62,203 nt of DNA from Phycisphaerae bacterium (GTDB taxonomy: Bacteria; Planctomycetota; Phycisphaerae; Phycisphaerales; Phycisphaeraceae), in the NCBI GenBank assembly GCA_030426385.1, contig JAUHYI010000017.1, positions 1-62,203 on the forward strand, written 5' to 3'. Below the pieces are notes generated by a model. That model was not told the origin of the DNA. It saw only the letters and a program-made list of their open reading frames with translations, and made no database searches. Both the position numbers and the translations under genes were made by a program. Positions 4,578 to 40,966 of this stretch are shown here, piece by piece (position 1 is the stretch's first letter; every line of letters begins with the position of its first letter).

Positions 4578-7500
4578 ATGATTACATGTCAGACACAATA
4601 CCGAGTCAACATTGTTTTTTTTATAGCGTTGATCTCGGCGTTGGCATTGACAATGATGTCTGCGTCAGATTGCCTTGCTGATCTGACCATTCACCAGCCA
4701 TTGCGACGAAGCGTTTACCAGACCAATGAAGTTATTCCGTTGGCGGTGGTGCACGATAATTCGGACCAATCCGCCAAGTTGGTGGTGACAGTGACGCGGG
4801 ATGGTGGAATCGGAACCAGCTACACGTTTGACGTAGGGGCAAGCGATACACGTAAAACTGGTGTGACGACAGATCATGTCAACCTGAACGGTCGGCTACT
4901 GCGGCCGGGACAATATACGGTTTCGGTCAGCGTTGGCGATCAGAGTGCGAACGCTGAGTTTGAAGTTTTTTCGCAAGTGCGTAGCTCGTCGTATCGCTTG
5001 ATCAACTGGGGTACGGCAGAAAAAGAAAATCGATTGGAAATCGGCGACAGCAAGTATGGCTACAACTTGTTCTATGGTCAGGGTGGGAGTGATCCGAACG
5101 GCTATTTCATTCGGGCGGGCGTGGATTTTGTGCCCAACTGTGTGATGGGGGGCGGGCATCAGATGAACCTGCGTATGGAATGCGACTGGTCGGATCCGTA
5201 TGCGGTGCGCGGTGGAATGATCAGTGCGGCGAAGTTTGCCTTGCGTGACCGGACATTGCCGAACGTGCCGATGATCCATTTTTTTGATGAGCCGGGATTG
5301 ACCTGGCATGAGGATTCAGTGTCAGGTGATCTGACCGCGCATGGTGTGCCAGCCCAGGTGCGTGCGTATGAAGCAGCGTTCAACAAAACCTATTTGTCGC
5401 ATCATGAGGTCGATGCGGATAAGCCCGAATCGCTTGCACAATGGAAACATTGGACGAAATGGAAACTGGGTTTCATGGATGCGGCCTGGAAACTGGGGCA
5501 GCACAGCGTCAGCGATATCGATTCGTCAATGTTGTCGGTGACGCAATCGCAATATGGTTTCCCAGCGTTTACCGATGGTTACTATTTCAATGTGGCCCGC
5601 TCGTTGCCGATCGTTAGCGGACACGGTGGCTACCATGACTGGGGGCCGGGCTTTTTCAATCCAGGGATGACGCTATCGATATCCCGAGGACGCGATCATG
5701 AAAAGGAATGCTGGTACCTGCCGACGTGGTATGCCAACACGACCAACGATCAGTATCGTGTCGAACAATATTTGTCGTTTATCACGGGTATTCAAGGGTT
5801 AATGTCGCCGCCGCCGCTGGAGCCAACCAAGAACCCGATTGCCCGCGAAGCGATCATTGAAACCAACAGCGTGATGGGCAAGTTGGGGACAATCTTCTCA
5901 ACCATGCCCGTGACGTATCAGCCGGTGGCCATGTTGTATTCGATCTCGAATGGTCTGGACGAGCAGGCGCGTTCGCTCACCGACAAGAAAATTTATTACG
6001 CCCATGACACGGCCCATGGCGATTCGCTGCCGTTCACCTATCTGGCAGGTAAACTCAACCAGCAACATTTTATGACAGTGGTTGAAGAGGATATTATCGA
6101 CGGCACGTTGGCACAGCGTTACAAGGTATTGGTGATTGGTGCGGTGTCCTATCTGGGCGATGGCGTGATCAACGCGTTGGAAGATTACATTGCTGATGGT
6201 GGTAAGGTGCTGGTGTACGATTCCACGGTTGTGATCGAAGGTGCAATTGATCTGGGCGTTAAGGCCGAGTTGCCCGAACAGGCGAAATTTGATGAATTGC
6301 AAAAGACGGGAGATCGGGACAGTTATCTTCCGTTGTCGACGACGGCAAAGTTTCTGGACGGTGCCAAGGCGTTGGCCCAAGCGATTGGTACACACCTGGA
6401 TGAGGCGGGGATCAATCCGGTTATCGAAACCGATGTGCCTACGATCGTGGCCATTAAACATGGGTATGGTGATGTGATGTATGTGTTCGCATTGAATGCG
6501 ACGCCTGATCGCGCCGAAGGCTCATCGATTGATCCGATTGCGGTTGACGCGACGATCGGTGTGCCAACCGAAGGTCGTGCTATTTACGATGCAATGGCCG
6601 GTGGTGCGGCATCAGGCTTGACGGTTAAGGATGGCGTGGCGTCAGGCCAACTGGCGTTTGGCGCAGGCCAGTTGCGCGTGTGGGCCTTGACATCCCAGCC
6701 GATCGGAAAAGTGAGTCTGTCCGCGCCGGTGGTGACGCATGATCTGACTCAACATGAACAGCCGATCACGTTGAACCTGACCGCTACGGTATTGGATGAT
6801 CAGTCGAACGTTCTGTCCGGTGCCATTCCGATGCGTGTGACGGTGACCGATCCTAATGGCGAGGTGCGTTATGAATTGCATCGCGCGACGGATCGCGGTG
6901 TGCTGGAATTGGCATTGCCCATGGCGGGTAATGATGCGGATGGTGCATGGCAGGTGACGGTGACCGAACTGTTGGCCAACACGCAGGGCGAGCGTTCGTT
7001 TGCCTATCAAAGCCTCAAGCGTCCGGCTTCGACCGCAGGTTTGACCGAGCGGGCGGTGGCCTTTGGTGGCGACTTGCAGCATGTGTTTGAATTTGCCCGG
7101 CGACATCATGATGTGACGATCGTCGTGGGTGATAGCGATTACAACCGCTCAGCGGCTGAACGTTTGAAGAAAATTCTCGAGCCATGGGACATGCGTTGCA
7201 CGATCGTGGATGCGGCGAGCGTCGGCCCACGTCCGATCATCGAAGCCGAAGCGCCAACATGGTCGGGTGGTTATACGCACACCCGACGAGACACGGTCAA
7301 GCCCGGTCAGGAAAACGGTGTTGAATACGTTGGGTTTAACCTGATGGGGCCGACGATTTTGATAGGAAATCCTGACGATCATGCGGTGATCAAGTTCCTG
7401 GCTGAACCGCGATGGGGCTTCCTGCCTTACGCACCGAAGCGCAATGTGTTTCCCGGTGGCTCGCGTGGCTACGTGGCCTGGCAACGTGATGCGGTGCAAC

Positions 7501-32636: not shown

Positions 32637-34256
32637 TCAACAGGGTTGGTTTTGCTTTTTGACGCTGGCCCAGTCGAGTTTGAATTTGGCAAGATACTTT
32701 CGTAAGCGGTCCGCATCGTTCAATGTTTTTCGATGTTTGCGAGATTCGGCGAACAGCTTGCGGCCCGCTTCCGATAGATTGGATGATTGGCGGCAAGTGC
32801 GGATCACGGTCTGGAGTTGTGCGACATCAAACAGATCCAGTGCTTCGATTTGTTGATCGTTGAGTATGCTTTGTAGATCGCAGTTGTCATTCTCGCTGTT
32901 TTCGATGCTTGTCCAGGCGCGACGTAAGCGATTGATTTCGTCATCGACCACATCTATTGTGATTCGGCCTGCGGTTGCCATGATGGCCATGCGGCGCATC
33001 GCGGCGTTGAGGTCGCGAAAGTTGGCTGACCAACGTGCGTCGCTGGATATGGCGAATTTCAAAAAATGTCTTCGTGCCTCGGCATTAAATCGAACTTGTT
33101 GGCCGGTGTGCCTGGCCAGTTGTTCCAGTTCGTATTGCACGTTGGGTTCGATATCATCGCGGCGCTGGGCCAGTCCGGGTAATTGAAAAGACCACAAGTT
33201 AATACGGGCGAGTAAATCTTCGCGGAATCGGCCGTTGGCTACGTCAGCGAGTAAATTGCGATTCGTGCCACATGTTAATTGGAAATCGCTGGCAGATTCT
33301 TTGTCGGCGCCTACGGCGAGGAATCGCTTTTCCTCGATAGCGCGGAGCAGCATGGTTTGTTCGTCCATGCCGAGTTCGCCGACTTCGTCAAGAAATAACA
33401 TGCCGCCATTGGCCTCGGTTAGTAAACCCTTACGTGCGGTGACTGCACCGGTGAATGCGCCCTTGGTATGACCAAACAAAGTGGACATGGCTGTGTCGCC
33501 GCGAATGGTGGCGCAATTGACTTCAACGAGCGGTCCATCGAGTTGTCGTCGTTGCTTTTTAAGTTGATAAACCCGTCGGGCCAATTGGCTCTTGCCGGCG
33601 CCGGTTGGGCCTGTAATTAATATCGGGTCGGTGCTCTGGATCGCGACGTGTTCGATCTGTTCGATGGTGCGGTTGAATGCGGCGTTGCGTGTGGGGATAC
33701 CGCTTTTTAAAAATTCCAGGCTGCGCGTTTGTTCCAATCCAAAACGCTGGGCAAGTTGATCGTAACGCGACAAGTCCAGGTCAATGGTTTTTAGTTGGCC
33801 GGGTTGGCCGCTATTTTTTCGGCGTGGCGGCGAGGTCTGTAATAACTTGGCGGGAAAATGTCGCGACTCGGTTAGTAGGAACAAGCAGATCTGTGCCACG
33901 TGTGTGCCGGTGGTGATGTGGACCTGGTACTCGCAGTTGTCGGTATCAAATGGATAGCTGGTGGCAAAGTCATACAGGGTTGCAAAAACCCCTTCGAAAT
34001 CCCATGCGTCATCCATTTCTACCGTATGCAATCGCACGTCGGTTTCGGGAGACACGGATCGAATGTCGTCGGCGACCTGGTTGGCCAGCTTCTGGAATTT
34101 GGGTTGGTAGATCATGTCAAACTGATCGACAACCCAGTCGTCATGTTGGCAGACCGAGACCGTGGGTCGCCAGGATCCCCAGCGATCGGGTCCGTCGCCC
34201 GCCATGCCGCGATCGAGCGTAGGCCCGAGTAATCCAATGACGATCTGTTTTAGCAT
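32637..34256 (-). CDS. rtcR: RtcR, sigma-54-dependent activator of RNA repair
   Basis: 539 residues, from ATG 34256. Residues 1-170 form the RtcR-type CARF sensing domain (VIGLLGPTLDRG, HITTGTHVAQICLFLLTE). The AAA+ domain has Walker A GPTGAGKS (216-223), GAFTGA (266-271), which contacts sigma-54, and Walker B MLFLDE (286-291). The C-terminus is helical and suits a helix-turn-helix. In known systems RtcR is relieved by ligands such as cleaved tRNA and then activates the repair operon. Here it is divergent from rsr, with a clear sigma-54 promoter at 34401-34416. Confidence 0.92.
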   Translation of the reverse strand: MLKQIVIGLLGPTLDRGMAGDGPDRWGSWRPTVSVCQHDDWVVDQFDMIYQPKFQKLANQVADDIRSVSPETDVRLHTVEMDDAWDFEGVFATLYDFATSYPFDTDNCEYQVHITTGTHVAQICLFLLTESRHFPAKLLQTSPPRRKNSGQPGQLKTIDLDLSRYDQLAQRFGLEQTRSLEFLKSGIPTRNAAFNRTIEQIEHVAIQSTDPILITGPTGAGKSQLARRVYQLKKQRRQLDGPLVEVNCATIRGDTAMSTLFGHTKGAFTGAVTARKGLLTEANGGMLFLDEVGELGMDEQTMLLRAIEEKRFLAVGADKESASDFQLTCGTNRNLLADVANGRFREDLLARINLWSFQLPGLAQRRDDIEPNVQYELEQLARHTGQQVRFNAEARRHFLKFAISSDARWSANFRDLNAAMRRMAIMATAGRITIDVVDDEINRLRRAWTSIENSENDNCDLQSILNDQQIEALDLFDVAQLQTVIRTCRQSSNLSEAGRKLFAESRKHRKTLNDADRLRKYLAKFKLDWASVKKQNQPC

Positions 34257-34336
34257 ATATAAAATTATAAATATAGATTTTAAATTATACAAATATGCGT
34301 AGATTGGCTTGTTTGCAATCGCGGGAAGATGTGGGG

Positions 34337-34350
34337 GATAAAAATTTATC
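34337..34350. promoter_or_regulatory. inverted repeat, candidate RtcR upstream activating site
   Basis: GATAAA-AA-TTTATC is an inverted repeat with 6-bp arms, 51 bp upstream of the -24 box of the rsr promoter and 81 bp before rtcR. Enhancer sites for sigma-54 activators usually lie in this range. Binding is inferred. Confidence 0.35.
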
Positions 34351-34400
34351 TTACTGTGATTAATAGGTTTAGGTAACAAGTTTCAAGTGTTGCGATATTC

Positions 34401-34416
34401 TGGCACGCTCCATGCT
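34401..34416 (+). promoter_or_regulatory. sigma-54 promoter of the rsr/rtc operon
   Basis: TGGCACGCTCCATGCT matches the consensus TGGCACG-N4-TTGCT at all but one conserved base, with the required GG-N10-GC spacing. It lies 59 bp before the rsr start and faces rtcR, whose GAFTGA motif requires sigma-54. This is the expected on-switch for the repair genes and probably the Y RNAs. Confidence 0.85.
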
Positions 34417-34474
34417 TAGTCATCCATCGTCCGTAAGGCATGAAACATCAACCTTGACCGAAAGGAGCTACACC

Positions 34475-36061
34475 ATGGCAAACAAAACCCTCTTCCAAAC
34501 CATCGTAGGAAAATTTACCCCCCACACCGACACGGTGAATGATGCTGGTGGTCAGGCGTATCAGTTCAGTCCCGAACATGCGCTGGCCCAGTACGCAGCG
34601 ACCGGCTGCTTGAACGGTACGTTTTACGCGACCGCTCAAATGCAACTGGTTCGTGTCTTGAACATGGCAGACAAAGTGACGCCTGAGTTCATCGCTCGCA
34701 CCGCGTTGTATGCCCGACACGAGGGCTATATGAAAGACATGCCAGCCCTGTTGGTGGCCGTGTTGTCCGTGCGTTCGCCAGGTCTGATGGCCGAAGTGTT
34801 CGATCGCGTGATCGATTCGCCGAAGATGCTGCGTAATTTTGTGCAGATCATGCGTAGTGGGGTGGTTGGACGTAAGTCGCTTGGCTCGCTGCCCAAACGT
34901 ATGGTTCGCCAGTGGATCGAACAGCGCACTGATGAGCAATTGTTCATGGGTTCGGTGGGTAACGATCCCTCGTTGGCGGACATCATCAAGATGGTTCACC
35001 CTAAGCCAACGACGGCGCAGCGCGAAGCGTTGTTCGGTTACCTGATCGGACGCGATGCGGAGGCCTCGGCACTGCCAGATATTGTGAAGCAGTTCGAAGC
35101 CTACAAAAAGGCGAAGAACCGTCGTAAGATTAAAACGCCTGACGTGCCGTTCCAGATGTTGACAGCATTGGATCTGGACGAACACGCGTGGCGATCAATC
35201 GCTCTAAACGCGCCGTGGCAAATGACGCGGATGAACCTGAACACGTTCCAGCGACACGATGTGTTTAAGGATCGTCAGATGGTTCAACTGGTTGCCAAAC
35301 GTTTGCGTGATCGTTCGTTGATCGGAAAGGCTCGTGTTTTTCCGTATCAATTGATGGCTGCGTTCATGAATGTGTCGGACGAGATGCCATTCGAATTGCG
35401 TGAAGCGTTGCAGGATGCGATGGAAATCGCCGTCGACAACGTGCCGAAGATTGATGGGAAAGTTTACATATTCCCGGATATTTCGGGTTCGATGCATTCG
35501 TCAGTCACCGGTGTGCGTAAGGGGGCGAGTTCGAAAGTGCGTTGTATCGATGTGGCGGCCCTGGTCGCGGCAGCGATGTTGCGAAAGAACCCGGATGCTG
35601 TGGTGGTTCCGTTTGAATCGGGTGTGATTCCGCCGTCGAAATTGCGGTTGAACCCACGTGATTCAGTGATGACCAATGCACAAAAGTTGGCGTCGCTGCC
35701 AAGTGGTGGTACGAACTGCTCGGCCCCGCTGCGTTATCTCAACGACCGCAAAGCTAAGGGTGACCTGGTCGTTTACGTTTCGGACAACGAATCGTGGGTC
35801 GATTCGCCCAGTTACGGTTGGTGTGGTGGTAGTGCAACCGAGACCATGAACCAATGGTTGGCATTCAAGCGGCGTAGTCCGAAGGCGAAGATGATTTGTA
35901 TCGACATTCAGCCCAACGAAACGACCCAGGCCAAGGAGCGTGACGACATCATTAACGTCGCAGGCTTCTCGGATCAGGTGTTCAAGTTGATTGCTGCGGC
36001 AGGCCGTGGTGAAACGCAGGGCGACTATTTTGTCAAGCAGATCGAATCGCAGGCGTTGTAA
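34475..36061 (+). CDS. rsr: Ro60/TROVE RNA-binding protein (Rsr)
   Basis: 528 residues from ATG 34475, AGGAG just upstream. Residues 1-300 form the HEAT-like TROVE ring that holds misfolded and Y RNAs (LARHEGYMKDMPALL-type repeats, PDVPFQMLTALDLDEHAWRS). Residues 310-528 form a von Willebrand A domain with MIDAS DISGSM (Asp335), GGTNCSAPL and VSDNESW. Bacterial Rsr binds Y RNAs that act as gates for RNA turnover and, with PNPase, degrade damaged RNA. The Y-RNA array follows directly. Length and domains match the family. Confidence 0.92.
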   Translation: MANKTLFQTIVGKFTPHTDTVNDAGGQAYQFSPEHALAQYAATGCLNGTFYATAQMQLVRVLNMADKVTPEFIARTALYARHEGYMKDMPALLVAVLSVRSPGLMAEVFDRVIDSPKMLRNFVQIMRSGVVGRKSLGSLPKRMVRQWIEQRTDEQLFMGSVGNDPSLADIIKMVHPKPTTAQREALFGYLIGRDAEASALPDIVKQFEAYKKAKNRRKIKTPDVPFQMLTALDLDEHAWRSIALNAPWQMTRMNLNTFQRHDVFKDRQMVQLVAKRLRDRSLIGKARVFPYQLMAAFMNVSDEMPFELREALQDAMEIAVDNVPKIDGKVYIFPDISGSMHSSVTGVRKGASSKVRCIDVAALVAAAMLRKNPDAVVVPFESGVIPPSKLRLNPRDSVMTNAQKLASLPSGGTNCSAPLRYLNDRKAKGDLVVYVSDNESWVDSPSYGWCGGSATETMNQWLAFKRRSPKAKMICIDIQPNETTQAKERDDIINVAGFSDQVFKLIAAAGRGETQGDYFVKQIESQAL

Positions 36062-36130
36062 CGCATGCCCCCACACACCATGGTGCGCGTCGTCTAATCG
36101 CGCCGCACACCCTTGATAGATGCAGATAAA

Positions 36131-36262
36131 ACACGACGAATGCTGATGGAACTACATTAATCCAAAGGTTGCAGGTTCAAATCCTGTCCGTCATTGATGA
36201 CGGTAGCTCAATTTGGATAGAGCATCGGAACACACATGTTTCATCACCCCTTGTCGCCGTGT
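36131..36262 (+). ncRNA. Y RNA 1 with permuted tRNA-like core (class A)
   Basis: Outer stem ACACG (36131-36135) with CGTGT (36258-36262), one mismatch, then CGA (36137-36139) with TCG (36254-36256), giving the Ro-binding CGAAUG / UUGUCG look of bacterial and animal Y RNAs. A second helix pairs UGAUGGAAC (36144-36152) with GUUUCAUCA (36238-36246). Inside is a permuted tRNA: T arm GCAGG-TTCAAAT-CCTGT (36171-36187); acceptor stem CCGTCA / TGACGG (36188-36203) closed by TTGA; bases U8-A9; D arm GCTC-loop-GAGC (36206-36223) with GG in the loop. No anticodon arm remains: its place is the Ro stem. It is probably cleaved from the rsr transcript. It should mimic tRNA for modification or docking. Confidence 0.85.
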
Positions 36263-36282
36263 TTAATTTTGAAAAGTGAATA

Positions 36283-36389
36283 GATCGTCGCGAATGCCGG
36301 CGGGATTACATGGCAAGTCCTTCGGGATCGCGGGTTCAAGTCCCGCTCCGTGCAAACGGAAACTCTCGTCATCGTTTGTCGCGACGATC
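36283..36389 (+). ncRNA. Y RNA 2, D-arm-less tRNA-like core (class B)
   Basis: A perfect 9-bp outer stem GATCGTCGC (36283-36291) / GCGACGATC (36381-36389) continues with GA/TC and opens at the conserved GAAUG. Helix 2 pairs GGCGGGA (36299-36305) with UCUCGUC (36364-36370). The core has a cUUCGg hairpin (36317-36328), T arm GCGGG-TTCAAGT-CCCGC (36330-36346) and a 5-bp acceptor TCCGT / ACGGA with a GCAA tetraloop (36347-36360). There is no D arm, so only a T/acceptor minihelix remains. It shares UUACAUGG with Y RNA 4, not with 1, 3 and 5. Confidence 0.8.
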
Positions 36390-36399
36390 ACATGAATAT

Positions 36400-36548
36400 T
36401 CGGCGAATGCCGGCGGAACTACATGATTCCAGATCCTGAGGTTGCGGGTTCGAGTCCCGTCCGTTCCATTTTGATTTGTTTTGATGCAATGGGACGGTAG
36501 CTCAAGCGGTAGAGCGCAGTAAAACGTTTCGCCACTCCTTGTCGCCGA
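36400..36548 (+). ncRNA. Y RNA 3 with permuted tRNA-like core (class A)
   Basis: The outer stem pairs TCGGCGA (36400-36406) with TCGCCGA (36542-36548), flanking GAAUG and CUUG. Helix 2 pairs GGCGGAAC (36412-36419) with GUUUCGCC (36526-36533), a compensated version of helix 2 in Y RNA 1. The core has T arm GCGGG-TTCGAGT-CCCGT (36444-36460), a full 7-bp acceptor CCGTTCC (36461-36467) / GGGACGG (36491-36497) with a 23-base AT-rich loop that may extend it by 3 bp, U8-A9, and D arm GCTC-AAGCGGTA-GAGC (36500-36515). The loop's DNA looks like a tRNA in permuted order without an anticodon arm. Confidence 0.85.
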
Positions 36549-36592
36549 TTTTGAAATAACTGTTTGCGGTACGGTGCCGCAAGCATGAGGGC

Positions 36593-36734
36593 CAGGCCGA
36601 CGAATGCCGGCATGATTACATGGTGAGAGCACCTGCTTGGCAGGAGGTCGCGGGTTCAATCCCCGCTCTTGATTGGCGAAAGCGATCAAGGTAGCTCAGC
36701 GAAAAATATCATGCCAATGTTTGTCATCGGCCTG
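36593..36734 (+). ncRNA. Y RNA 4, tRNA-like core opened in the D loop (class B)
   Basis: The outer stem pairs CAGGCCGA (36593-36600) with TCGGCCTG (36727-36734); a C-A mismatch then leads into CGAAUG / UUUGUCA. Helix 2 pairs GGCAUGAU (36609-36616) with AUCAUGCC (36708-36715). The core begins with the D-loop GG, then D-stem GAGC (36627-36630), anticodon stem CCTGC / GCAGG with a loop of only TTG (36632-36644), variable AGGTC, T arm GCGGG-TTCAATC-CCCGC (36650-36666), a 7-bp acceptor (36667-36673 / 36685-36691) with inner GAAA loop, U8-A9 and D-stem GCTC (36694-36697), which pairs back to GAGC. It thus keeps every arm but is opened in the D loop; the shrunken anticodon loop rules out decoding. 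Confidence 0.85.
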
Positions 36735-36928
36735 CACGAAATTCGAGAGCCCTTCCGGGGGTATTTATCGAAGCAAGCCTCGTGCAAGTGCATGGAGTAA
36801 AGTTTCTGGGATGAAGTGAGGTGGGGAGTGAGAGGGAAAAGTGGGTGCCAAGCACGAGGAGGAAAAATGGGGGGCAAGCACGAGAAGGAAAAGTGGGGGG
36901 CAAGCACGAGGGGGAAAAGTGGGGGGGG
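36735..36928. repeat. spacer with long hairpin and 26-bp purine-rich tandem repeat
   Basis: CGTGC arms (GCACGA, 36734-36739, with TCGTGC, 36780-36785) enclose a second pairing TTCGA / TCGAA and a CCC-TTCC-GGG tip. From 36833 to 36928 a 26-bp unit (GGAAAAGTGGGGGGCAAGCA plus CGAGNN) occurs about 3.7 times; AAGCACGAG recurs at 36850, 36876 and 36902. The last copy ends in a run of nine G just before Y RNA 5. No Y RNA motif is seen here. Confidence 0.75.
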
Positions 36929-37058
36929 GCGTTGTGAATGCGGATGGAACTACATGTCGTGGGTTCGAATCCCATCGGTCTTGCTGATCAAAAAGTAAGG
37001 CCGTAGCTCAGTCTGGTAGAGCGTGTTTCATCGAATTTTGTCACAGCGTTTTTTTTTT
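36929..37058 (+). ncRNA. Y RNA 5 with permuted tRNA-like core and U-tail (class A)
   Basis: Outer stem GCGUUGUGA (36929-36937) with UCACAGCGU (37041-37049), 9 bp including two G-U; its U-A pair replaces the C-G of other members at the same place. Helix 2 is GAUGGAAC (36943-36950) / GUUUCAUC (37025-37032). The core has T arm GTGGG-TTCGAAT-CCCAT (36959-36975), 7-bp acceptor CGGTCTT (36976-36982) / AAGGCCG (36997-37003), a 14-base closing loop, U8-A9 and D arm GCTC-AGTCTGGTA-GAGC (37006-37022). Ten T follow the outer stem, so the RNA can end at its own terminator. Confidence 0.85.
37041..37058 (+). terminator. Rho-independent terminator made from the Y RNA 5 stem
   Basis: The 3' strand of the 9-bp outer stem (TCACAGCGT, 37041-37049) runs directly into a stretch of ten T (37049-37058). 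The 5' strand lies 104 bases upstream, so the whole tRNA-like core sits in the terminator loop. It would separate the Y RNAs from rtcB unless read through. Confidence 0.6.
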
Positions 37059-37116: not shown

Positions 37117-38616
37117 ATGACTAACACAGCCAACTATAACTACGACCTGATTCCTACTGGCGAGGCCACTGCGATTCTGCCGTTGCCGGGTGACGCAGGC
37201 CAACCGATTACCGTCATTGGCACGCCAGCGATTCGCGAAACGTTCGACAACGATTGCCTGAAACAGGCGCTCAATTCACGCTTGGCACCGGGCGTCACCG
37301 ATCTGGTGATCAACCCTGATGCCCACATCGGCTACGGCGCACCAGTGGGTTGTGTCATGGCTTCGCCGACGCACATTTATCCCGGCCCGGTTGGTGTCGA
37401 TATCAAATGTTCGATGAGTCTGTTGCAATTGGATTTGCCTGCCGATGCGGTGGCGGATAAACCGGTGCGCCGCGCTTTAATTGAAGCGATTTGCCAGCGC
37501 GTGCCAACTGGTGCGGGCAAGGGACAACGCCAGGCCCCCAAGTCGCGCCGCGTGCATGAACAGATGGGCCGTATCATTGCTGCCGAAGGAGCGACCAAAC
37601 AGAATCTGGAAATGCTAGGCATTCCTCGTCATTGGCGACATCGTTGCGAAGACGCTGCCCATGTGGGTCATGACGATACAAACGCAGCACTATACACGCG
37701 CCTCGATCGTCTGATTGGCGAAGGGCGATTCCGCTCGTTCGCCAACAAGATCACCCAACTCGGTTCCTATGGTGGCGGCAATCATTTCGGCGAATGCGAA
37801 ATCGTCCACGTCGATGAATCGCAAAAAGAAACCGCCAAGGTATTTGGATTGAAAGATAACCATGTGGCGTTCCTGTCGCATTGCGGTTCGCGTGGGTTCG
37901 GCCACGATCTGGCATCCGGCCAGTTCCGCGCGATGCAAGCCAAGTTCAACCAGTGGGCGATTCCGTTTCCCGGCGGCGACCGCCAGCTATGCTATGCACC
38001 GTTGGGCACGCAAGAGGCCAACGATTATCTGGACGACATGGCCCTGGGTGCGAACTTCGCCACGATCAACCACATGCTCATCAACGCGCTGGTGCTCGAA
38101 GCATTCCAGGAAATTATTCCGGGCACGACCGGCAACCTGGTTTATTTCATCAGCCATAACATTGCCCGCAAGGAAATTGTCAACAACAAGGTGTCATGGG
38201 TGATGCGAAAGGGCGCCACCCGCGCATTTCCCGCGGGCCACCACGCGCTCAAGGACACGCCGTTTGAAAACACCGGCCATCCTATCCTTTTGCCCGGCGA
38301 CCCGCAGCGCGGTTCCGCCGTGATGGTCGCTCAAGAAGGCGCCGCCCAATCGTTGTATTCGGTCAACCACGGTGCCGGCCGCATCCTGGGTCGCAAGGCC
38401 GCCAAACGTCAGCTCGATCAGCAATCGATCGACCAGTCATTTGAGGATCAGGATATCCTGACCAACTGCCGATCCTACCCCCGCGACGAAGCCCCCGCCG
38501 CGTACAAGGATTTCGAAGAAGTGTTAGGTTCAGTGAAAGGCGCGGGGTTAGCGACAGAAGTCGCGCGATTGAAAGCTCGCTTTGTGATTAAAGATGCAAG
38601 TAAGGCAGATGATTAA
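37117..38616 (+). CDS. rtcB: RtcB RNA ligase
   Basis: 499 residues. RtcB joins 2',3'-cyclic-phosphate (3'-phosphate) and 5'-OH RNA ends with GTP and Mn. Motifs are complete: NPDAHIGYGAPVG, GVDIKCSM with Asp95 and Cys98 as metal ligands, GSYGGGNHFGE with His223, HCGSRGFGH with His255, RKGATRAFPAGH, and SVNHGAGR with His418, the guanylylated nucleophile. KCS replaces the common GCG beside the Cys. GAGAG precedes the ATG. It is in the same orientation as rsr and lies 58 bp after the Y RNA terminator, so it needs read-through or its own promoter. Confidence 0.95.
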   Translation: MTNTANYNYDLIPTGEATAILPLPGDAGQPITVIGTPAIRETFDNDCLKQALNSRLAPGVTDLVINPDAHIGYGAPVGCVMASPTHIYPGPVGVDIKCSMSLLQLDLPADAVADKPVRRALIEAICQRVPTGAGKGQRQAPKSRRVHEQMGRIIAAEGATKQNLEMLGIPRHWRHRCEDAAHVGHDDTNAALYTRLDRLIGEGRFRSFANKITQLGSYGGGNHFGECEIVHVDESQKETAKVFGLKDNHVAFLSHCGSRGFGHDLASGQFRAMQAKFNQWAIPFPGGDRQLCYAPLGTQEANDYLDDMALGANFATINHMLINALVLEAFQEIIPGTTGNLVYFISHNIARKEIVNNKVSWVMRKGATRAFPAGHHALKDTPFENTGHPILLPGDPQRGSAVMVAQEGAAQSLYSVNHGAGRILGRKAAKRQLDQQSIDQSFEDQDILTNCRSYPRDEAPAAYKDFEEVLGSVKGAGLATEVARLKARFVIKDASKADD

Positions 38617-38645: not shown

Positions 38646-39884
38646 ATGTTGTCACTATCAAATATTTTCGAAAAATCGAGTTTAATGTTGTCACGTGTCC
38701 AACTGGATTCAAACGGTGTGACATACAGTGGGCCGGCTATGGCAAATTGGGATCCAGATGAAGGGTTTCGGTTGCAAGGTGTATTGAATCAAGTTGCTGG
38801 AGTGCGGCCCAAAACAATTACATGTGGTCACGCTATATTTTCCGATAAATGTGAAGGGGCTATTCGAATTGCATACGGAAATTTTGAACGTGCGGCATTT
38901 TTTCACGGTGGAATGGACAGTTATTGCTTCAACCTTCATACGTCAAATTCATTAGACGTAACTTTGAGTGGTCTTGTGTCGGTAAAACAAAAAAAAGAAA
39001 CAATGTCTCAGTGTGGGCATATGGTATATGAAGGAAAACTTCCAATTATTCTTCCTGATATGGTAACGCGAAAAGAAACTATTCGGGATAAAGTAATTCG
39101 AGAAGGATTCTCTCGTGGAATGGATTATCACGAGAATGGCTTTGGATTTGTTATCCATAACAACGACGATGACAAATACCATCTTCGCTGGTCAATTCCA
39201 CCTAGAATAATGAACAACAAAAATTGCGCGCGTTACCCCTATGCCGTGGTGCAAGCATGGAAATTTTTTTCCAATAGTAGTGCCGAACCAATGTATTCAA
39301 ATGTACACGATGGGCGCAGAATTATAAAATATGTTCAAAAACGCCAGAAAAGTATTCGGCTAGGACGATACGAATTAATTCCCTTTGGTAAAGCAATTTC
39401 AGGTGCCGACTTGCTCAAGCTATCTCTATTCTTTCACGAGAATGGCCCTCGTGCACACGTGGCTCGGAATATAATGCTTCAGTGCTTTGAAGCATCACGT
39501 GCGCGAACATGGCATGCGACCATGTTTTTGATTGGATCAGTTCTTGAAGCTGCAATGAGAACCATTTACAGCATACCATTTGAGCATTCCAAGAGACGCC
39601 GGGATTTTTGTATGAATTCATGTTTGATCGATTTTAAGGATACTTACTTAGGAGGAAACTGGGACTCAGCAATAGATAATATTTGCAAAGCATATAAATG
39701 TATTCGACATCGATCTGCACATCCTGATTGGCTAAAAACTGGTGTTGGTTCGCTTACGAAAGAAATGCAAGCCGAAACACACAATGACTTGATTTTAATG
39801 TCCCGATTTTATGGATACATGATTTTAGCTATGGCGGGATTCAAAAATTTGAATCCTGATTTTCCAGAACCAGTGGCTTCTTAA
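38646..39884 (+). CDS. AT-rich gene with C-terminal HEPN-like Rx4H motif, inside the repair operon
   Basis: 412 residues starting 29 bp after rtcB and ending 32 bp before rtcA. Residues 1-230 are beta-rich, without a recognised domain, and may resemble the N-terminal part of ApeA-type proteins. The last 160 residues look like a HEPN helical bundle (TWHATMFLIGSVLEAAMRTI, then ICKAYKCIRHRSAHPDW) with R354-H-R-S-A-H359, the Rx4H active-site pattern of HEPN ribonucleases. Composition differs sharply: one hand-counted 60-base line (39121-39180) has 23 G+C, against 36 in rtcB (38041-38100) and 40 in rtcA (40441-40500). Horizontal acquisition is likely. If active, it would cut RNA and leave the ends that RtcB and RtcA process. 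Confidence 0.6.
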   Translation: MLSLSNIFEKSSLMLSRVQLDSNGVTYSGPAMANWDPDEGFRLQGVLNQVAGVRPKTITCGHAIFSDKCEGAIRIAYGNFERAAFFHGGMDSYCFNLHTSNSLDVTLSGLVSVKQKKETMSQCGHMVYEGKLPIILPDMVTRKETIRDKVIREGFSRGMDYHENGFGFVIHNNDDDKYHLRWSIPPRIMNNKNCARYPYAVVQAWKFFSNSSAEPMYSNVHDGRRIIKYVQKRQKSIRLGRYELIPFGKAISGADLLKLSLFFHENGPRAHVARNIMLQCFEASRARTWHATMFLIGSVLEAAMRTIYSIPFEHSKRRRDFCMNSCLIDFKDTYLGGNWDSAIDNICKAYKCIRHRSAHPDWLKTGVGSLTKEMQAETHNDLILMSRFYGYMILAMAGFKNLNPDFPEPVAS

Positions 39885-39916
39885 CCAGCACGTTTTTCTT
39901 GAATTTGAGTCGTATT

Positions 39917-40966
39917 ATGCAAACGATTGACGGTTCCCAAGGCGAAGGGGGTGGGCAGATATTGCGGTCATCGTTGGCGTTTGCCATGGTGACGGGGCAG
40001 AGTTGTCGTATTGAGAATATTCGGGCGGGGCGGAAGAAGCCTGGGTTGATGCGGCAACATCTCACTGCGGTGCGGGCAGCGCAAGCGGTGAGTGGGGCGA
40101 CGGTCGTGGGTGATGAAATCGGATCCACGCAAATCGAATTCGCCGTTGAAAATCCTGGCCGCGTATCGGGCGGGGAATATCATTTCAGCATCGGCACCGC
40201 GGGGAGTACGACGCTGGTGTTGCAGACGGTGTTGCCTGCGCTGATGTTGGCTGATGGGCCTAGCGTGGTGGTGTTGGAGGGTGGAACGCATAATCCGTTT
40301 GCGCCGCCGTTTGATTTTCTGGTGCGTGCGTTTTTGCCGGCCCTGGAAAAGATGGGGCCGAAGGTGCGAGCCACGCTGGATCGGCCGGGGTTTTATCCTG
40401 CCGGTGGCGGGCGGTTGTCGGTGACGATTGAGCCGGTGAAAAAACTGGGTGTGATGGAATGGCTCGAGCGCGGCGAAACCGTGCGGCGCTCGGCGACGGC
40501 CACGGTGGCGAATTTGTCACGCGAGATTGCTGAGCGTGAATTGAAAGTCGTGCGTAAAAAATTGAATTGGGCCGATGAATGTCTGGTGGTTAACGAGGTG
40601 TGCGATACGCCTGGGCCGGGCAATATCCTGACGTTGGAAGTCGAATCGGATGGTGGGGAAAGTGGAGGGGGTGGGGGGATATGCGAAGTGTTCACGGGGT
40701 TTGGCGAGATGAATCGTCCCGCGGAGGTGGTGGCCAAACAAGCGGTGCAGGCCTGTCAACGTTATCTGTCATGCGGCGTGCCAGTGGGCGAGTATCTGGC
40801 GGACCAATTGCTTTTGCCGATGGCCATTGCGGGTGGCGGGGCGTTCCGTTGCGTGCGATTGACTCGCCACACGCAAACGCATATCGAATTGGTGCAAAAA
40901 TTTCTGGATTGTCAGATCACCACCGAATCGCACGGCCGTGATGGTGTGATTGTTCGGGTGTCGTAG
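39917..40966 (+). CDS. rtcA: RtcA RNA 3'-terminal phosphate cyclase
   Basis: 349 residues from ATG 39917; a TTG at 39899 is less likely. RtcA converts RNA 3'-phosphate to a 2',3'-cyclic phosphate through an adenylylated His. Landmarks are DGSQGEGGGQILRSSLAFA at the start, RAGRKKPGLMRQH, the IGTAGSTTLVLQTVLPAL block, and RHTQTHIELVQKF near the C-terminus with the candidate catalytic His. It completes the rsr-Y RNA-rtcB-rtcA set but is separated from rtcB by the HEPN-like gene. Confidence 0.93.
   Translation: MQTIDGSQGEGGGQILRSSLAFAMVTGQSCRIENIRAGRKKPGLMRQHLTAVRAAQAVSGATVVGDEIGSTQIEFAVENPGRVSGGEYHFSIGTAGSTTLVLQTVLPALMLADGPSVVVLEGGTHNPFAPPFDFLVRAFLPALEKMGPKVRATLDRPGFYPAGGGRLSVTIEPVKKLGVMEWLERGETVRRSATATVANLSREIAERELKVVRKKLNWADECLVVNEVCDTPGPGNILTLEVESDGGESGGGGGICEVFTGFGEMNRPAEVVAKQAVQACQRYLSCGVPVGEYLADQLLLPMAIAGGGAFRCVRLTRHTQTHIELVQKFLDCQITTESHGRDGVIVRVS

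Follow-up and report, generated by a model that had tools for sequence, protein, structure and literature searches.

The RNA repair locus and its Y RNA array

The stretch of DNA analyzed here, hereafter the window, comprises positions 1 to 62,203 of contig JAUHYI010000017.1 (assembly GCA_030426385.1) from a Phycisphaerae bacterium. It carries an RNA repair locus with the gene order rtcR (divergent), rsr, an array of Y RNAs, rtcB, an open reading frame (ORF) and rtcA. The subject of this report is the array, which consists of five Ro-type stems (GAAUG...UUGUC) between rsr and rtcB, at about 36129-37048. The units, U1 to U5 (their types are described below), and their neighbors are as follows.

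32637..34379, minus strand: rtcR, divergent regulator, CARF and sigma-54 activator (Pfam RtcR 260 bits, Sigma54_activat 165 bits)
34401..34415, plus strand: sigma-54-like promoter TGGCACGCTCCATGC, by motif only
34412..36061, plus strand: rsr, bacterial Ro60 (Pfam vWA_Ro60, TROVE)
36129..36264, plus strand: U1, Y RNA, A type, Arg-like (RF02553 59.8 bits; 15-48 pair A-U)
36283..36389, plus strand: U2, Y RNA, T type (RF02553 29.1 bits)
36400..36549, plus strand: U3, Y RNA, A type (RF02553 69.8 bits; 15-48 pair A-U)
36594..36733, plus strand: U4, Y RNA, D type (RF02553 24.0 bits)
36835..36926, plus strand: G-rich tandem repeat with a 26-bp unit, 3.5 copies, between U4 and U5
36930..37048, plus strand: U5, Y RNA, A type (RF02553 72.7 bits; 15-48 pair G-C)
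37117..38616, plus strand: rtcB, RNA ligase (Pfam RtcB 343 bits)
39899..40966, plus strand: rtcA, RNA 3'-phosphate cyclase (Pfam RTC 259 bits)

In the stem of all five units, GAAUG stands opposite UUGUC, and all five match the Rfam family YrlA (RF02553) on the plus strand. The gathering cut-off of this family is 69 bits; U5 and U3 lie above it, and U1, U2 and U4 lie below, the latter two by 40 to 45 bits, so that the curated cut-off misses three of the five units. The minimum free energy (MFE) folds of U1, U2, U4 and U5 showed the described stems and cores, with z-scores of -2.44, -3.52, -3.83 and -4.14, respectively. The sequence-only reading had proposed that five Y RNA units stand in tandem between rsr and rtcB, and these results confirm that the array is real. 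A match to the permuted tmRNA model (tmRNA_permuted) at 36444-36499 reached 21.5 bits, against a cut-off of 47, and was rejected.

An array of five had been thought to be without described counterparts. A profile of Rsr gave at least 80 named loci, which together with four relatives and the window provided 85 downstream regions. In these regions a stem finder detected 272 units, compared with a mean of 13.8 in shuffled sequences, and a T arm was present in 189 of the 272 units versus 53 of 1,335 shuffled cores. The 64 regions bounded by rtcB held 217 units, and 12 of these 64 contained at least five detected units; the array is therefore not singular. Short units, with cores of about 43 to 53 nucleotides and no detected T arm, head several of the arrays (e.g., loci L087, L089, L090, L076 and L113). 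A search of 61 genomes with RF02553 also gave partial matches (e.g., in G041, G023, G015, G056 and G058) that had no rsr nearby and were taken as false.

As seen in the list, the locus has the parts of an RtcR-regulated RNA repair operon, namely a divergent rtcR (PADLOC RtcR match of 821.9 bits at 32637-34292), rtcB together with rtcA and, by motif, a sigma-54 promoter. In alignment A1 the conserved MANK start of rsr corresponds to the ATG at 34475. The putative promoter lies 60 nucleotides 5' of this codon and has one mismatch to TGGCAC-N5-TTGC, which we take to be the sigma-54 consensus. Sites with at most one mismatch were found in the rtcR-rsr interval of 42 of 61 loci, the window counted, while the same scan of shuffled intervals gave a mean of 0.8 and a maximum of 3 of 61 (20 rounds). 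Across the whole window, with two mismatches allowed, such sites were not enriched (95 versus a mean of 88 by chance). Scans of both strands for sigma-70 promoters (1 versus 2.5 in shuffles) and for terminators (5 versus 3.1) stayed near chance. The ORF between rtcB and rtcA (38646-39884, 412 amino acids) had no Pfam or PADLOC match; close to its C terminus it carries RHRSAH, which resembles the RX4-6H motif of HEPN RNases.

Architecture of the tRNA-like cores

Every unit had been described from the sequence as carrying a T arm, then a closed acceptor stem and then a D arm. This order held for U1, U3 and U5 but not for U2, which has no D arm, or for U4, whose D stem is split around the core. 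The core forms in the window comprise two opening points and a D-less form, and a uniform permuted core is too simple a description. U1, U3 and U5 (A type) resemble tRNAs whose opening lies in the anticodon loop, and no such loop appears in their folds. Together with U4, they keep A14, G18G19 and the T loop, and in all four a 15-48 pair is possible.

The 15-48 pair played no part in choosing units. Among 120 A-type units with a parsable D arm, it was possible in 110, as G-C in 78 and A-U in 32; the remainder had A-C (4) or other combinations (6), and G-U was absent. The association between the two positions was strong, although kinship among units inflates its significance (Fisher p 2.9e-24), and three other positions showed no significant association (47, p 0.66; 45, p 0.09; 44, p 0.74). 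The near-absence of mismatches suggests that the pair is also kept, beyond inheritance. These pairs, together with the covariation described below, support the tRNA mimicry proposed for the array.

Variants of the A type were seen by eye in other loci. Units in L087 (6802-6944), L081 and L080 have Leu-like D arms, the L087 unit with a long variable arm as well, and would be mimics of class II tRNAs. A third opening point is represented by a single example, in L117 (4480-4584), where a Ro stem surrounds a tRNA in natural order (D, anticodon and T arms), opened at the acceptor, which ARAGORN calls tRNA-Leu(UAA).

The D type is represented in the window by U4, which has the following parts, all on the plus strand.

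36627..36630: D stem 3' strand GAGC, which comes first
36632..36644: anticodon arm CCUGC-UUG-GCAGG, anticodon lost
36650..36666: T arm GCGGG-UUCAAUC-CCCGC
36667..36691: acceptor stem UCUUGAU/AUCAAGG, closed by a loop
36692..36697: U8-A9 and D stem 5' strand GCUC, which comes last

The core thus runs GAGC, anticodon arm, AGGUC, T arm, closed acceptor, UA and GCUC, and the D-stem strands (36627-36630 with 36694-36697) stand at its opposite ends. The unconstrained MFE fold yields this D-opened cloverleaf, with U4 resembling a tRNA that has all four arms, is open at the D loop and has lost its anticodon.

Automatic assignment of topology classes was noisy, with shuffled flanks giving the A class in 15.6% and the D class in 4.1% of trials, and for this reason the seven D-type members used for training were picked by eye (the window, L076, L089, L081, L145, L156 and L162). 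In their alignment (A3), 92.3% of cells were paired, and sliding the strands led to a sharp drop. Changes on both sides of a pair occurred in 11 of 20 pairs, compared with a shuffled mean of 5.6 and none of 500 shuffles as high, and the covariation score was 0.474 versus 0.171 in shuffles. The acceptor, anticodon and T stems account for most of the covariation. Compensatory changes among homologues, whose absence had been named as grounds for rejecting the RNAs, are therefore present. Alignments A2 and A4 misplaced the D strand and were excluded from the counts.

A covariance model (R1) was built from the seven A3 cores, which it matches by construction (U4, 65.3 bits), and gained six further members, giving 13 D-type cores. 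In the 85 loci the new members were L092 (61.5 bits) and L098 (58.5 bits), with the next match at 44.9. Among 392 genomes of the phylum, where the best 30 loci were inspected, four more were found (G313, 53.0 bits; G068, 51.8 bits; G175; G296), all lying among Y RNA units. Three of the four are adjoined by rsr; the contig of G313 stops close to the array and shows rtcA and a distant rtcB relative. Two inspected loci at contig ends (L181 and L193) showed nothing. Two other matches were rejected, G152 (51.0 bits) as a tRNA-Thr and G518 (52.6 bits) as a tandem pair of tRNA-Ala genes, and because of the latter a score near 50 is no proof of membership. Also left outside the 13 were an L088 unit (6893-7024) that looked Ser-like and D-opened by eye but scored 17.5 bits, and units of L107 and L122 with partial D-opened features.

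At an E value of 1e-8, R1 matched 2 of 288 genomes in the phylum of L162 (its own and the false G518) and 1 of 297 in the phylum of L145 (its own); with 17 candidates scored per genome, these absences are weak. D-type members span Planctomycetota, a Bryobacterales metagenome-assembled genome (MAG; L145), which we take to belong to Acidobacteria, a Verrucomicrobia MAG (L162) and a PVC-group MAG (L156).

The 13 D-type cores retain the tRNA signature positions, with G18G19 and A14 in all, U8A9 in 12, and a D stem in all (GAGC/GCUC in 12, GAGU/ACUC in 1). The 15-48 pair can likewise form in all 13, as G-C in 10 and A-U in 3 (L081, L145 and L162). Their anticodon loops measure 3 to 10 nucleotides, and none is a 7-nucleotide loop with U33; the lone 7-nucleotide loop, CGUUCAC, lacks it. 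In seven of the 13, the anticodon loop is a GNRA or UNCG tetraloop. A further unit, in L156 (6835-6918), has the D-stem strand GAGC abutting the T arm without an anticodon arm, and is a possible link between the D-opened and D-less types.

The D-less form (T type) is represented by U2, whose fold shows a hairpin C(UUCG)G, a T arm and a 5-bp acceptor hairpin with a GCAA loop. For the alignment of this type (A5), 37 units were picked by rule, five were dropped by eye as not T type (L142 first, L148, L158 first, L163 and L165 second), and U2 and an L076 unit were added, giving 34. In the inner stem and T arm, 91.0% of cells were paired, and both-sided changes occurred in 11 of 13 pairs versus 6.3 in shuffles. 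The dinucleotide GG directly 3' of the ACAU motif was found in 39 of 57 T/D units, 6 of 56 short T-less units and 44 of 130 A units, which weakly supports it as a sign of a kept elbow.

Age and tRNA likeness of the units

The units of the window were compared with T-arm-bearing units of ten other loci. The best foreign score exceeded the best score with a neighbor in all five cases (U1, 0.56 versus 0.44; U2, 0.51 versus 0.35; U3, 0.61 versus 0.44; U5, 0.49 versus 0.38; and, by a small margin, U4, 0.39 versus 0.35). Since every unit is closer to a unit of another genome than to its own neighbors, the array is no fresh tandem duplication, and the diversification proposed from the sequence is upheld. 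By this likeness, the differences among the units are evidently old and kept.

The proposal that the units serve different tRNA-binding partners fared unevenly when their parts were compared with 43 distinct host tRNA sequences, an incomplete set (e.g., no His or Asp). For the 5' part of U1, the five best host matches were all Arg tRNAs, and the summed parts favor Arg(ACG), the 3' part alone matching best with Pro(CGG). The best match of U4 was Ala(GGC). U3 and U5 were ambiguous, with Ala(CGC) and then Trp for U3 and a tie between Thr and Ala for U5, and U2 had no clear match (Thr(CGT), weak). The idea that each unit copies a different host tRNA is thus supported for U1, hinted at for U4 and not general; guesses made by eye (Trp for U3, Pro for U5) were not borne out.

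R1 also scores neighboring tRNA pairs (L175, L176, L177, L182, L189 and G518), aligning to the 3' part of one tRNA and the 5' part of the next. From this we infer that a D-opened core may be the inner part of a tandem tRNA pair. Tandem tRNAs have been proposed as a source of permuted tRNA genes (PMC3978253).

At least five tRNAs lie around rsr, mostly upstream, in 14 of 84 other loci (9 to 32 tRNA genes; L081 in genome G049, L165, L142, L144, L116 and nine more), which in those genomes puts the raw material close by; the window has none. G049 holds 32 tRNAs in a 16-kb locus, with 78 matches genome-wide, and this cluster looks like a reserve of tRNAs, similar to the trn operon of Anabaena. That operon provides spare tRNAs for stress and shares its regulation by TrcR with rtcB, and the passages on it in PMC10272220 name neither Rsr nor a Y RNA. 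Free-standing tRNAs called by ARAGORN (Pro UGG, Arg ACG, Leu CAG and Phe GAA) also occur beside or between Y RNA units in the rsr-rtcB interval of L107, L111, L121, L122, L130, L138 and L141.

Proposed function and rival explanations

The array resembles YrlA (RF02553) in lying beside rsr in an RNA repair operon, and YrlA has the layout of U1, U3 and U5, with a Ro stem, the T arm first, a closed acceptor and the D arm last. According to a review, YrlA mimics the D, T and acceptor arms and is a substrate of DusA and TruB (PMC8394870). Unlike YrlA, U4 has its opening in the D loop and retains an anticodon arm, U2 lacks a D arm, and five units stand in a row. In gene content and order the locus is like the Salmonella rsr-yrlBA-rtcBA operon with its RtcR and sigma-54 (PMC7790460), sharing a divergent rtcR, rsr, Y RNAs, rtcB, rtcA and a sigma-54-like site; it differs in having five Y RNAs instead of the two named there and an ORF between rtcB and rtcA. 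We judge the array to be a YrlA variant whose members would mimic tRNAs, have no normal anticodon loop and be tethered to Rsr by different sides. Among literature on YrlA, Rsr/RtcB and tRNA-mimic Y RNAs, compared at the level of titles and abstract openings, with the founding YrlA papers outside the comparison, no description of D-opened Y RNAs was found.

Sequence and covariation support, as predicted features, the Ro stems, the presence of two opening points and of one unit without a D arm, the loss of a normal anticodon loop and the closure of the acceptor end. We tentatively favor, at somewhat below an even chance, the view that the locus encodes five predicted Ro-binding Y RNAs that likely act as uncuttable tRNA stand-ins on Rsr. 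Four of them would keep the tRNA tertiary core, three being predicted to be opened at the anticodon loop and one at the D loop. In the proposed mechanism, damaged tRNAs would switch on RtcR and the sigma-54-like promoter, leading to joint expression of rsr, the Y RNAs and the repair enzymes. The stem of each Y RNA would attach it to Rsr, and its tRNA elbow, with the side from which it is held differing between types, would be presented to tRNA-binding proteins, with anticodon nucleases, tRNA-modifying enzymes and exonucleases such as PNPase as candidate partners; the different opening points would aim the elbow in different directions relative to Rsr. Without an anticodon loop or a free tRNA 3' end, a unit could be neither cleaved there nor charged, and it could not serve in translation. 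The Y RNAs could then hold partner proteins as decoys or adaptors while RtcA and RtcB mend the real tRNAs.

The Salmonella operon offers an analogy. There, tRNA fragments go with activation of the RNA repair operon, YrlA fragments were not detected where tRNAs are cut, and a competitive nuclease inhibitor has been proposed (PMC7790460). In the window the elbow and the tertiary core appear to be kept, and the anticodon loop and the open 3' end appear to be lost, by two routes; this pattern fits the competitive-inhibition proposal.

Several observations weigh against the stand-in view. The fold of U3 is weaker (z-score of -1.44, with 21 of 200 shuffles equally good), U2 and its kin have no D arm, the isotype match is clear for U1 alone, and the L117 unit keeps a 7-nucleotide anticodon loop, which contradicts a claim that such units are always uncuttable there. 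In A3, three of the four permuted D-stem pairs are invariant, with one compensatory change (L162). All four D-stem pairs appear in the MFE fold of 7 of 13 whole units and of 10 of 13 cores folded alone; the whole-unit folds of L089, L145, L092, L098, L171 and L172 do not show all four, and in L171, L172 and L089 the mean D-stem pair probability is at most 0.30, in the whole unit and in the core alone. Given this recovery, the four-pair D stem is marginal on energy alone, and tertiary contacts, absent from the folding program, would have to hold so short a stem. Apart from the kinship that inflates the 15-48 association, descent from different tRNA ancestors could account in part for the 15-48 and D-stem patterns.

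The main rival, which we regard as possible yet rather doubtful, is that the units are exonuclease adaptors. Their tRNA-like heads would hold PNPase or a comparable ring nuclease on Rsr, the openings would set the geometry of RNA feeding, and no decoy would be involved. In Deinococcus, an Rsr-bound Y RNA tethers an exonuclease in the RYPER complex (PMC7790460, PMC4726728), the tRNA-like head of YrlA binds PNPase according to a review (PMC8394870), and units with no detected T arm, which would fit a scaffold role, are common (57 cores of at most 65 nucleotides). The window differs from Deinococcus in that four of its units carry tRNA cores. An adaptor role would leave unexplained why a whole tRNA tertiary core is kept and the anticodon loop specifically is lost. 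The array might instead be neutral debris, Ro stems joined to scraps from neighboring tRNA clusters, with perhaps one working unit. The clusters around rsr in the 14 loci named above, and the scoring of neighboring tRNA pairs by R1, which is the expected look of capture across a pair, speak for such an origin, but both-sided changes in the D and T types, the preserved 15-48 pairs and the cross-genome likeness of each unit make it improbable.

It is quite unlikely, in our estimate, that the Y RNAs feed back on RtcR by competing with tRNA halves for its CARF domain, or by binding the halves, and so switch the operon off. RtcR does sense tRNA fragments (PMC7790460), and rtcR, rsr, the array and rtcB lie together; the unit folds, however, show no free tRNA-half end, and some unit-bearing loci have no rtcR match in the available DNA (e.g., L102, L103 and L115). 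Most remote is the reading in which the units are permuted tRNA genes whose transcripts are circularized and cut into working tRNAs, with the adjacent RtcB as ligase. In the permuted tRNA genes known from Cyanidioschyzon, green algae and Thermofilum, the junction falls within the D loop (type I, 20/21) or the anticodon loop (type II, 37/38) (PMC3978253), as the D and A types would, and their transcripts are rearranged back to standard tRNAs (PMC10085705). In the window, by contrast, it is the permuted form that is carried on the Ro stem, and it contains no anticodon: the A types lack the loop, U4 has a UUG triloop, and ARAGORN called no tRNA.

Returning to the stand-in view, a broader version of it is speculative, and we hold it with considerable doubt. 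Ro proteins might carry a stress-induced library of permuted tRNAs, differently opened, attached to Rsr by different sides and with the anticodon removed, that occupies many proteins attacking or handling tRNAs with mimics resistant to their cutting; its source would be tandem tRNA pairs re-opened from clusters beside rsr. The tRNA body would then be a reusable head, openable at different points with its tertiary pairs kept, a use of permutation absent from the list of natural permutations in PMC10085705. The D-opened and D-less members, which share the stem and the elbow and differ in the opening, would provide clean contrasts on the role of the tRNA head.

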